Assembly: GCF_000317515.1 (NCBI RefSeq)
Contig: NC_019738.1
Coordinates: forward strand, 719,501 to 783,500
Origin: Allocoleopsis franciscana PCC 7113
GTDB taxonomy: Bacteria; Cyanobacteriota; Cyanobacteriia; Cyanobacteriales; Coleofasciculaceae
Direction: 5' to 3'
Length of the DNA: 64,000 nt
Shown: one piece after another, positions 53,639-57,852 of the stretch
Position numbering within the stretch: the first letter of the stretch is position 1
Layout: every line of letters begins with the position of its first letter
Notes under the pieces: generated by a model
Database searches by the model: none
What the model was told of the DNA's origin: nothing
Seen by the model: only the letters and a program-made list of their open reading frames with translations
Position numbers and translations under genes: made by a program

Positions 53639-53780
53639 GGTGAAATCTCTTTGGCAGCGTCTGATTCTCCTGTGATATCCCAAGTTGCGGTCAAATGTGA
53701 AGGTTTATAGGACTATAGTGAGCGTTATTTTGGCTTTGTGCGATCGCGTGAGGTGATCGCATCTTGGAGTTTTTGATTTT

Positions 53781-55082
53781 TTATGCTGTTACTGCCTCTG
53801 CTTCTACGTCATCTTCTGATTCATCTCTGACTTTGAAATACCAGTAGAGGTTAGCAACGGCTAAGTTTGAGGCGTTTTGTAAGTTGGCAGGGACTAAGGT
53901 TTTATAACCTGCGATCGCGGATTGTTCGCTGATGTATGATGCAAATTCTTGACGTAAGCTTGGTTTCATCATCAAAACTAGCTGATCTTGCAGGGATGCA
54001 GGATGAGATTTTTGCTTTAAATTCTCGTAGAGTAACTGTTCTGGTGGTGCAGTTAAGGCGGTTGTATCGGCGTTGATGTCTGGGTTAGCTGTGACTTCTG
54101 GGTTGTCGAAGTCGGCACTTTGGAGGAGTTTGAGTTCAGATGGAGGGAGCGATCGCATCCAATCTACATGATTTTGCCAAGACTCTAAGACAGCTAAATC
54201 GTGGTCGTGAATTCGGATAAGTTCGGGGAAGAGGAAATCGAGTTCATCTTCGGTTTCACAGCGTTCAATTACAGTCAGGGAATCTTGACGGATTTTGTCT
54301 TGGAGGGACGAGAGGCGATCGCTTACTGCTGCTAGCTGATTTTGCAATTGAAACGACAAAGTGATTGTCTGGTCAATTGTCCAAGCACATTCCAGCCTAC
54401 GGAGTTGTCCAGCCGCACAAGTTTCTGACAACAACTGAGGATTGTTATAGTCTGCTAATGCCTCTGTTAACATTAACTGTGCGCTTGCTAAGGTAGCGTT
54501 TCTAATACTCAGATCTTCGCACACCATAGCGGTTTTCATGAGCTTAGTTGCTTCTAGAAACTTCCCATAAGCCCGAATCAAAACTAGACGATGCTGCTCA
54601 AACTTGATATCTTGGGCAACCTCATCAATTCGCTGGATGATTTCTGAACCTTGGTCTTTTAGAGCTTTTTTTAGGTCAATAAAACCATTTTTGACTTCTA
54701 GCTTGAGTTGCTTTACATCTTCTCTCAGCTTCAGAGTTTGCCACAAGTTGACGGCTATCAATGCTACACCTGCAAACGTGCCGATACCAATCACAACTGT
54801 AGTTGCTTGCAAAACTCCTAAGCTAGCTTGGACAGCTTGAAATCCTCTGTGCATTTGGTACATCTGTCCTGCACTCATTGCCATCTGTGGAATAGCTGCC
54901 AACGGATTCAGCACAGCGCCGCTATTGCTCAGAATACCCACTGCATTACCAGCAAAGTGACCAGCATTCGCAGTGCCTTTAGCCCATCTAACTACGCCTA
55001 TTGGTACTCCTCCAGAATAAACTTGATCATATATGCCAGCAGCAAGACCAGCCTGAATGTGAGGGGAAAATTGAAACAGCAT
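53781..55082 (-). CDS. Unknown membrane-associated protein divergent from a dynamin
   Basis: A 433-residue protein of unrecognised family. A glycine/alanine-rich N-terminus (1-80) leads to a hydrophobic segment 'ATTVVIGIGTFAGVALIAVN' (about 93-112). A coiled coil 'LREDVKQLKLEVKNGFIDL' to 'IQRIDEVAQDIKFEQ' follows. The rest is helical and acidic, ending in ESEDDVEAEAVTA. Its gene is divergent from the TerB-dynamin gene with only 140 bp between, so they share a control region. That they act together at a membrane is inference. No enzymatic motif is visible. Confidence 0.7.
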   Translation of the reverse strand: MLFQFSPHIQAGLAAGIYDQVYSGGVPIGVVRWAKGTANAGHFAGNAVGILSNSGAVLNPLAAIPQMAMSAGQMYQMHRGFQAVQASLGVLQATTVVIGIGTFAGVALIAVNLWQTLKLREDVKQLKLEVKNGFIDLKKALKDQGSEIIQRIDEVAQDIKFEQHRLVLIRAYGKFLEATKLMKTAMVCEDLSIRNATLASAQLMLTEALADYNNPQLLSETCAAGQLRRLECAWTIDQTITLSFQLQNQLAAVSDRLSSLQDKIRQDSLTVIERCETEDELDFLFPELIRIHDHDLAVLESWQNHVDWMRSLPPSELKLLQSADFDNPEVTANPDINADTTALTAPPEQLLYENLKQKSHPASLQDQLVLMMKPSLRQEFASYISEQSAIAGYKTLVPANLQNASNLAVANLYWYFKVRDESEDDVEAEAVTA

Positions 55083-55221
55083 AGTTCTGCCTCAGTGGGA
55101 GTTCTTTATCTTAGAGCCTAATTTGTCTCATTAAGAAAAGTCACTGAATTTATCTAAATTTTAAACACTTTCAACTGAAGCTAAGCAATACTAGATTTAA
55201 ATTGATTACCTTAGACAGGTT

Positions 55222-57777
55222 ATGAATACTGCCCTAGTCACTTCTGAGGCTGTTGAACTTTTTTCGCGCATTACTGGGCAAAAGCTCAGTCAAAAAACTC
55301 TCACTCCTTCTGTGATTTTCTTAGCAGCTTTGGTAACGGTTCTACTGGGGGTGATGTTGGCAGATGGCACTGTGACAGAGGAAGAAAAGCAGCGCTGGCA
55401 AAAAAGCATCAATAAATTTATCCCTCCAGAGGGTAATGTACGTCAATTGACGCAGCTTTTGAGTAAAGGAGTCAGACAGAATCAGGTATATAAAAAACTT
55501 AACGATTTGCTAACGCTGACGGCTCCGCTTTCAGAATCGGAAAGGCTGTTGTTGATTGGCTTTGGCTATGAAATGTCAGCAGCCGATGGAGTAATGGACG
55601 CTCGTGAGAAGAAGTATTTGGAGGTAATTGCCAATCGACTAGGAATTAACCCACGACACTTGGCGGTTCTCGAAGCTGGGTTCACTCATCAAGGAACTGT
55701 GGAACCATCTGCCTTGGATGAGGTGCAGTCTTTACTTGATCCAGCTCGGTTCCATGAATTGGATAGTGTTTTTGTTAAAGCTACCAGTGATATGTTGGCA
55801 GCTCTACCTGCTAAATCTGAACACAAAGGGATGCAATTACAGCAATCTACATCTTACAAGCATTTAAAAGAGTTCCAGGAGTATCGGCAGCAATTAAGTA
55901 ATTTTTGCAATCAACTTTTCCAGATAATTCAAAATTGTAGCAATCGTGATTTCCTACCTCATACTCTCACAGAGGAGATAAATAAGATATCTAAAAACTT
56001 ACAATTGCAGCCATTTAGACTGGCAGTTTTAGGAGAGTTTAGTCAAGGTAAATCAACCTTACTAAATGCTTTGCTGGGTGAAAAAATTCAACCTGTAAGA
56101 GCAATTCCCTGTAGTGGTACTGTTACAGTTTTGAAATATGGAGCGCAAAGACGGGTAATCTGTCGCTATAAGGATGGACGAGAGGAAGAGATTCCCTTTG
56201 AGCAGTATCAAGTAAAAGCTGCCATTCCCAAAGAAGCAGCACGAGATCATCGCAGTGATGAGCTGGCACAATCCGATCTTGACGAAATCATTTTAGAACA
56301 TCCTGATTTGGAGTTATGTAAAAGTGGTGTAGAAATCATTGATTCCCCAGGATTGAATGAAAATCCTCTGAGGACGACTATCACTCAGAAACTTCTTAAG
56401 GATACAGATGCAGCTATTTTCCTAACAAATGCCATGCGTCTCCTCCCTGAGAAGGAAAAAGAATTGATACAAAATGTAAGGGTACAACTGAATGGGGGTA
56501 AAAAAAACGAGCCAATCGGAAATCTGTTTTTAGTTGTTAATTTTATGGATTTGCTGGACGAGGAAGAAGATTGTGAAGATGTAATACAGCGAATTGAGAG
56601 CTTTGTCAAAGAAGAAAATCTGCTACTTAAGGCTGAAAACCGACTCCACTTTATCTCTGCAAAATCAGCGCTGAAGGCAATTTTAAAAGGAAATGAAGAT
56701 GATTATCTGAAAGCTTTTCAGATTTTCACCCAGTCTTTGGAGGAGTTCCTAACAAGCGAGTGCGGTTCCATAAAACTCAAACAGTTCATCACTAAAATTA
56801 ATACTTTGGTTCAATCAAGTTTTCAGGGGCTGCGCCAAGCAGAGGAAGTTTTAGACGGCAAGGTTAACCTCTCTGAAGTAGAAAAGCAAAAAATATTGGA
56901 ACAAATTGGAGAAGCTAGCGGTCGTGATGTCAGAATTCGTCTTTTAGCAGACCAACTAATAGAGAGTGTGGTTGAACAATCGGCTGAGTCTTGGGATGAA
57001 TGGAGTGAAGGTTTGAGTGAACGAATGGCTCAGAAGAGCCTAAGCTGGACTTCAGAACACAATCCCGTTTTGAGCCAAGACAAACTAATCAAAGACTACA
57101 TGAGTCAATTTCTTCAAGACTTAACACAAGAGATAGATGCTTGGGGAAACAACACTTTTAGAGATGTAATATTACAACAAAATATTAAAATATTAGACGA
57201 AAGAATTTCTCAAGAGTTAGAAGCAATTCAAGCAGAGTTTAAAAGCTTTGATCAACAAGTAAAAAGTCATTTGACTGAGCAACTTAACCTCTCAATAAGT
57301 GGAATTAATGATAATTTTTGGGGTTTTGGAGGTTTTGGCGGTGGCATTGGAGTAGGTGGTGCTTTAGCTGCTGGATTAGTAGCATTTGCAGGAATTGGCT
57401 TCATTGCAATAATTCTAGCAAGCGTAGCCGCAGCAATTGTTGGGGGTTTTGGACTGTCAATGCTAGATATCGATGGGCTTAGAGACAAAATAAAACTTAA
57501 AGTTTTTGAAATAGGATTCCAAAAATTTAATGAATCAATGGATAAAGTTTCAGAAAAATTCTATGAGATTGTTGGTTCAGTCTTTAATAACCGAGTTGAA
57601 TCAGCAAGCCAGGTCATTACACAAGCAATTTTGCTTTATGAAAATCTATTAGAGCAGCAGGAAAAAACTTACAAAGACAGTTTGGAACAGCGCGAGGCTG
57701 ACAAAGTTTGGATCACTCAGAAGCGACAAGAACTTGAGCAGGTGCAGAAGAATATCGAGGCAATTCTCCCTTCCTGA
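55222..57777 (+). CDS. TerB-dynamin-like GTPase
   Basis: An 851-residue large GTPase. The N-terminus (about 25-155) is a TerB-like helical domain ('MLADGTVTEEEKQRWQKSI', 'MSAADGVMDAREKKYLEVI'). The GTPase follows with G1 GEFSQGKSTL (271-280), G2 Thr in IPCSGTVTV (about 295-303), G3 DSPG (374-377) and G4-like NFMD (440-443). A glycine-rich hydrophobic hairpin ('GGIGVGGALAAGLVAFAGIG' and on) near residue 705-745 is a membrane paddle, and the C-terminus is a coiled coil. It resembles bacterial dynamin-like proteins, which remodel membranes and in some species give phage tolerance. G4 is NFMD, not the usual NKxD. The divergent gene at 53781 is a likely partner. Confidence 0.88.
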   Translation: MNTALVTSEAVELFSRITGQKLSQKTLTPSVIFLAALVTVLLGVMLADGTVTEEEKQRWQKSINKFIPPEGNVRQLTQLLSKGVRQNQVYKKLNDLLTLTAPLSESERLLLIGFGYEMSAADGVMDAREKKYLEVIANRLGINPRHLAVLEAGFTHQGTVEPSALDEVQSLLDPARFHELDSVFVKATSDMLAALPAKSEHKGMQLQQSTSYKHLKEFQEYRQQLSNFCNQLFQIIQNCSNRDFLPHTLTEEINKISKNLQLQPFRLAVLGEFSQGKSTLLNALLGEKIQPVRAIPCSGTVTVLKYGAQRRVICRYKDGREEEIPFEQYQVKAAIPKEAARDHRSDELAQSDLDEIILEHPDLELCKSGVEIIDSPGLNENPLRTTITQKLLKDTDAAIFLTNAMRLLPEKEKELIQNVRVQLNGGKKNEPIGNLFLVVNFMDLLDEEEDCEDVIQRIESFVKEENLLLKAENRLHFISAKSALKAILKGNEDDYLKAFQIFTQSLEEFLTSECGSIKLKQFITKINTLVQSSFQGLRQAEEVLDGKVNLSEVEKQKILEQIGEASGRDVRIRLLADQLIESVVEQSAESWDEWSEGLSERMAQKSLSWTSEHNPVLSQDKLIKDYMSQFLQDLTQEIDAWGNNTFRDVILQQNIKILDERISQELEAIQAEFKSFDQQVKSHLTEQLNLSISGINDNFWGFGGFGGGIGVGGALAAGLVAFAGIGFIAIILASVAAAIVGGFGLSMLDIDGLRDKIKLKVFEIGFQKFNESMDKVSEKFYEIVGSVFNNRVESASQVITQAILLYENLLEQQEKTYKDSLEQREADKVWITQKRQELEQVQKNIEAILPS

Positions 57778-57852
57778 AAAGCAAAAGTACGTGGCGATTC
57801 CTGTGTTGAACCTAAGATACCCTAGACAGACACAATAAACAGTTGTCAATCC

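Follow-up and report, generated by a model that had tools for sequence, protein, structure and literature searches.

The structures of bacterial dynamins are known, but their jobs mostly are not. Here we describe two adjacent genes of the cyanobacterium Allocoleopsis franciscana PCC 7113, J and D, which encode a helical membrane protein and a TerB-dynamin GTPase with a helical trunk, respectively. They lie within a stretch of 64,000 nucleotides (contig NC_019738.1, positions 719,501 to 783,500), hereafter the window, whose own numbering is used for the features below. The described proteins nearest to D are NpBDLP of Nostoc punctiforme (PDB 2J68) and the mitofusins, which have the same order of GTPase, neck, trunk and hydrophobic paddle; unlike these, D adds a TerB domain, a non-canonical G4 motif (NFMD), partner variants devoid of a GTPase and a hypervariable trunk. 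J resembles JukB (PADLOC PDLC04114, PDB 9jht) in N-terminal sequence and in fold, but it is longer (433 amino acids), has an extra C-terminal domain and stands beside a dynamin instead of JukA. A review reports that JukA recruits JukB to the early phage infection vesicle, where it forms tetrameric pores (PMC13282480).

D is also comparable to LeoA and LeoBC, represented by PADLOC models, and to Bacillus DynA, dynamins that either have a place among defence models or have been linked to resistance against phages. To our knowledge, no J-like partner of LeoA, LeoB or LeoC and no D-like trunk polymorphism of DynA has been described. LeoA, LeoB and LeoC are all dynamins (PMC4159319), and DynA delays lysis and has a role in membrane surveillance, which shows that dynamins of bacteria can influence how a phage infection ends (PMC8844932). 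Within the cBDLPs, clades (KGK, HSR1, chaperone, Tandem A/B) are likewise defined by conserved gene neighbours, and the cBDLP passages of that article, so far as they go, name no TerB domain and no J-like gene in divergent position; the J-linked clade thus appears undescribed there (PMC5827413).

In the window, J (53781-55082, minus strand, 433 amino acids) and D (55222-57777, plus strand, 851 amino acids) are intact open reading frames whose start codons are separated by a divergent intergenic region of 139 bp (55083-55221), as an earlier sequence-only reading of this DNA had reported. We scanned 84,980 prokaryotic species genomes and obtained J at 78 loci, every one of them in a record with a cyanobacterial title. 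Domain profiles were mapped over these loci and their close relatives, and we counted those J genes that were complete, distinct and preceded by 600 bp or more of sequence. A divergent dynamin piece lies upstream of every one of them (69/69), and J genes that seemed to stand alone, with no dynamin piece, turned out to be N-terminally truncated or placed at contig ends. The sequence-only reading had named the lack of the divergent gene beside the dynamin in relatives as the observation that would overturn it, and the relatives keep the two together throughout. Among 291 cyanobacterial genomes, J is present in 31 (several with fragments only), the C-terminal domain C2 of D in 26 and both in 22 (Fisher p=4e-22), and the inspected exceptions are contig breaks, remnants or divergent C2 domains (G139, G090, G236, G039). 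J and D form a genuine conserved two-gene module, with an obligate linkage far beyond chance.

The same reading had tied the two genes together through a shared control region. The divergent arrangement is indeed typical, yet the promoter is not the sole link: in one genome (G212) D and J follow each other on one strand, 3 bp apart, in a tight operon, so that the link lies with the proteins as well. In relatives with a gap of 137-143 bp, alignment reveals a partly conserved element, AAATACGGTTATNTTT, in the intergenic region, which is weak in the window, and on the J side of the region these relatives have a candidate promoter resembling TTTACT-N17-TAGGCT.

J has no match to a Pfam family. A single strong hydrophobic segment is found at about residues 83-111, the rest of the protein is helical in an AlphaFold2 model (predicted local distance difference test 76.5, predicted template modelling score 0.80), and a conserved C-terminal domain spans residues 340-428. 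The PADLOC JukB model matches residues 7-94 (E=1.3e-4) and also detects two other cyanobacterial families, one adjoining a dynamin and a small gene (E=3e-13) and one with no dynamin nearby (E=2e-7). Profile comparison with hhalign joins these two families to J (82%, E=1e-5, and 94%, E=1e-7). When the J model was compared with 985 PDB chains, JukB (9jht_B) ranked third, with a Z-score of 9.7, a root-mean-square deviation of 4.7 and 186 of 263 residues aligned. Agreement between sequence and predicted fold thus supports a remote but significant homology of J to JukB, and this replaces the view of J as a membrane coiled coil without known relatives. J accordingly provides the JukB-like effector of the Juk anti-jumbo-phage system, at this remote level of homology. 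JukA was not found beside J, where the adjoining gene is D, and because of this the pair is not a Juk system.

Several observations concern J and its JukB-like relatives more widely. A second, distinct dynamin family of about 790-840 amino acids occurs in seven genomes (loci L135, L137-L140, L142, L144) in a three-gene run, in which the dynamin is followed by a protein of 175-300 amino acids (Gly-rich and hydrophobic in some) and then by a JukB-like protein of 390-450 amino acids. At L136 the JukB-like gene is present on a contig too short to reveal a dynamin. An assignment of this second family to SynDLP was unsupported, as phmmer found no Slr0869 match. In nine loci (L017, L020, L059, L063, L065, L066, L067, L070, L076) J itself is fused at its C-terminus to an acyl carrier protein; PF00550 was detected in the six tails scanned, and the attachment serine is retained except in L017, where it is changed to Phe. 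Two loci (L071, L082) carry a GUN4 tail instead, and L018 a tail of 276 residues.

In D, the TerB domain (55327-55665, plus strand, residues 36-148; PF05099, E=2.4e-12) precedes the Dynamin_N core (56020-56472, plus strand, residues 267-417; PF00350, E=1.9e-24), in which the G1 P-loop (GEFSQGKST) and G3 (DSPG) are both intact. A Gly-rich hydrophobic hairpin follows at 57385-57480 (plus strand, residues 722-753), with a Kyte-Doolittle peak of 2.6 at residues 722-740; the TerB-like N-terminus, P-loop and membrane hairpin read earlier from the letters alone are therefore all borne out. G4 reads NFMD rather than the canonical N/TKxD, with the specificity Asp retained, and this sub-motif is not decisive for membership of the dynamins. 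Across the aligned family it is NF[M/I/W/F]D, mostly NF[M/I]D, in all readable rows except two (NKLD, NQID). TerB-type dynamins carry NF[M/I]D and GTPase-C types NKLD or NQID, a difference that possibly reflects an altered nucleotide affinity. The predicted model has a neck and trunk helical bundle with a hydrophobic paddle, residues 211-828 match NpBDLP (2j68, E=4e-45), and the closest folds are those of mitofusin-1 (Z 26.6) and of BDLP (Z 18-19). By its GTPase motifs and modelled trunk and paddle, D is a bacterial dynamin-like protein of the BDLP/mitofusin type, predicted to hydrolyse GTP and to remodel membranes. The PADLOC LeoA model matches D (E=9.5e-20); D does not reach the NCBIfam cut-offs for LeoA/HP0731 (20.9 bits vs 325) or DynmDynABac (56 bits vs 1600), and no SynDLP (Slr0869) match along its chain was found beyond about 65 residues (7zw6, E=5.7e-4), NpBDLP being far closer. 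The genome of the window also contains three more dynamin-like genes in tandem (L012, G000:C1:1538930-1544890; 585, 693 and 694 amino acids), unlinked to J.

The partners of J are modular. Forty-five have TerB and a GTPase (41 of the TerB-GTPase-C type and four cut by locus ends), 14 consist of the C-terminal part only, five are TerB-C and four GTPase-C. The C-only partners are about 340 amino acids long and have no membrane hairpin; the genome of the window has one of them too, in a second pair located at 5.49 Mb with a J of about 60% identity. Mapped on the tree of J, the four partner states require nine changes, the C-only state being essentially one old group and GTPase-C arising four times. 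What recurs is C1-C2, with the end signature EQREAEKAWIxQxRQELEQVQ; in the window, the helical C2 domain (57475-57774, plus strand) is the part common to nearly all architectures, including C-only. As TerB-C and C-only partners occur, the GTPase is dispensable and the C-terminal helical region is the constant part, which makes C2 a candidate segment for docking on J. This weakens the analogy drawn earlier with DynA, that is, GTPase-driven membrane protection with delayed lysis, because many partners lack both GTPase and TerB, and the hairpin is missing as well from those of the C-only type. D-type TerB domains are also seen alone, in tandem (about 380 amino acids) or fused to an AAA domain beside a vWA (TerF-like) gene (L171-L173, L167-L170, L174).

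The trunk of D varies in a manner that J does not. Among Nostoc genomes whose J proteins are 88-96% identical, the TerB domain is 85-96% identical, but discrete classes are seen in the GTPase and most strongly in the trunk. Over 30-residue windows in 11 Nostoc genomes, identity in D is 91-97% at residues 1-110, falls to a mean of 55-74% (minimum 23%) at about residues 509-790 and returns to 91% at residues 799-828, and that in J stays at 83-98%. The corresponding trunk and hairpin cassette of D in the window is 56746-57591 (plus strand). Individual proteins are mosaics: L056 matches one class in the GTPase and another in the trunk, with a switch near residue 519, and L047 matches most relatives to about residue 518, falls to 28-55% and, at the C-terminus, is again 82-95% identical to all except the L053/L054 class. 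The GTPase grouping is incompatible with the trunk tree (approximately unbiased test, p=2e-5). Synonymous divergence (dS) of the trunk between classes is 0.46-2.9, mostly well above that of J in the same pairs (0.13-0.48), which argues that trunk alleles were swapped. The ratio of non-synonymous to synonymous divergence (dN/dS) is below 1 throughout and 0.15-0.46 within a trunk class; together with the high dS between classes, this indicates that the alleles are imported and functional rather than decaying. A whole partner has been replaced in a pair of Anabaena loci (L060/L066), where the middle domain of J is 99% identical, the GTPase of the partner 54% and C1 34%, and TerB is missing. Control dynamins of the same genomes (two of the NpBDLP tandem and one of 816 amino acids) have no such variation, the NpBDLP orthologues averaging 84-100% identity per segment. 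The trunk of D is thus mosaic by allele exchange, J remaining conserved as D changes.

The pair is mobile, accessory and patchy. A same-genus genome, collinear at 87-96% protein identity, has 60 bp in place of the 4144-bp segment that holds J and D (53709-57852), a clean empty site, and carries its own copy elsewhere, in another J clade. Besides the patchy occurrence given above (J in 31 of 291 genomes), J remnants are frequent. One such remnant in the genome of the window is an orphan J C-terminus, 88% identical, beside a transposase-like reading frame (G000:C1:6332904-6333137); several genomes carry similar remnants of 60-90 residues. L109 and L176 (G012:C168) each hold two C-terminal remnants, and in L176 these flank a gene pair for an AAA_15 ATPase and a DUF3226 protein, an arrangement suggestive of a cassette that invaded a defunct J locus or caused its duplication. 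J was not found in the viral, phage and plasmid collections IMG/VR, INPHARED and PLSDB, and a phage-borne origin was rejected on this ground.

We hold with middling confidence that J and D are an accessory immune-type membrane module. J would act as effector in or close to the membrane, where this JukB-like, alpha-helical protein could insert and permeabilise or disrupt a membrane, and the constant helical region at the C-terminus of D would be its docking site for J. The recombining distal trunk and hairpin of D may serve as a recognition surface for a fast-changing target, most probably a phage protein or a phage-modified membrane. GTPase and TerB, where present, would add nucleotide-driven assembly and a membrane or stress input; they are dispensable, to judge from the many partners that lack them. 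Once the target is recognised, D would bring J to the membrane site or set it free there, and the infection or the cell would be killed. Docking, pore activity, the phage trigger and the order of events are all inferred. The earlier proposal of a membrane-surveillance module holds as regards a two-gene, membrane-acting unit, to judge from sequence; its features fit an immune system better than general membrane housekeeping.

Several points weigh against this interpretation. The homology of J to JukB is remote: searches of PDB sequences with J or its relatives (phmmer, hmmsearch) found no JukB chain, Foldseek gave the J model no significant fold (all E-values above 0.1), and two Cry11Aa entries rank above JukB (Cry11Aa Z 10.8), a similarity that may reflect a generic helical bundle. 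As helical bundles can reach Z of about 13 by chance in such comparisons, the case for JukB rests on sequence and fold agreeing. The genome has a single JukA-like gene, a weak match (E=2e-7) located 6 Mb away. The trunk variation was measured mainly in the one Nostoc clade, and several other close pairs outside it have only a mild excess of trunk divergence. PADLOC matched none of the 10 neighbours of the pair in the window, where the surroundings are housekeeping genes, and a defence island at this site was rejected accordingly.

Other explanations have to be considered. D might behave like DynA or NpBDLP and oligomerise where the inner or thylakoid membrane is damaged, with J stabilising the site as scaffold or tether and any phage link incidental. 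Such a role in membrane repair or stress would suit the mitofusin- and NpBDLP-like fold of D, the surveillance role of DynA in Bacillus (PMC8844932) and the acyl-carrier or GUN4 tails of some J proteins, which suggest an input of lipid or pigment status. We consider it rather unlikely, however, as many partners have neither GTPase nor hairpin, the pair is patchy, with remnants and an empty site, and the other dynamins of the same genomes do not swap trunk alleles. The obligate pairing, the JukB-like J, the mobility and the frequent remnants would equally suit an addiction module, with D as antidote to a J that forms pores toxic to its own cell, but this toxin-antitoxin-like arrangement is improbable: antidotes usually co-vary with their toxin, and here J is nearly constant and D replaced wholesale, remnants keep pieces of J without D, and a dynamin of 851 amino acids would be a costly antidote.

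The multi-allelic, mosaic character of the locus could also mark self from non-self, with polymorphic trunk alleles identifying kin and J as incompatibility effector. Most recovered carriers belong to filamentous genera, as filament compatibility would have it, but the pair also occurs in genera, Chlorogloea among them, that are usually regarded as non-filamentous, and no signal for surface export or contact delivery was seen, although no search was aimed at one; this reading is highly improbable. Finally, coiled-coil trunks tolerate substitution, and the trunk might vary simply since its sequence hardly matters. Such relaxed constraint is the most doubtful of these ideas and is largely excluded, because it cannot produce the excess of dS, which rises sharply in the trunk cassette too; nor does it fit the discrete allele classes with their low dN/dS, or the conserved orthologous trunks of other dynamins.

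Within the immune-type interpretation, it can tentatively be speculated that the dynamin trunk is a recombining, multi-allelic phage-recognition domain, Mx-like, that triggers a JukB-like pore, and that such pairs represent a general immune architecture. In the antiviral dynamin MxA, loop L4 is the fast-evolving specificity segment (PMC12047444). The comparison of animal MxA and MxB with D is one of analogy, homology being claimed up to the dynamin superfamily, and the mode of change differs, by point substitution in one loop in MxA and by exchange of a large trunk cassette in D. An obligate partner homologous to JukB, a dispensable GTPase and trunk swapping like that of immune receptors would give a large group of cyanobacterial dynamins a directly testable function, and may constitute a prokaryotic parallel to the antiviral Mx dynamins. 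The invariant linkage of the two genes and the conserved C-terminal signature also provide a simple handle with which to find and classify the module.

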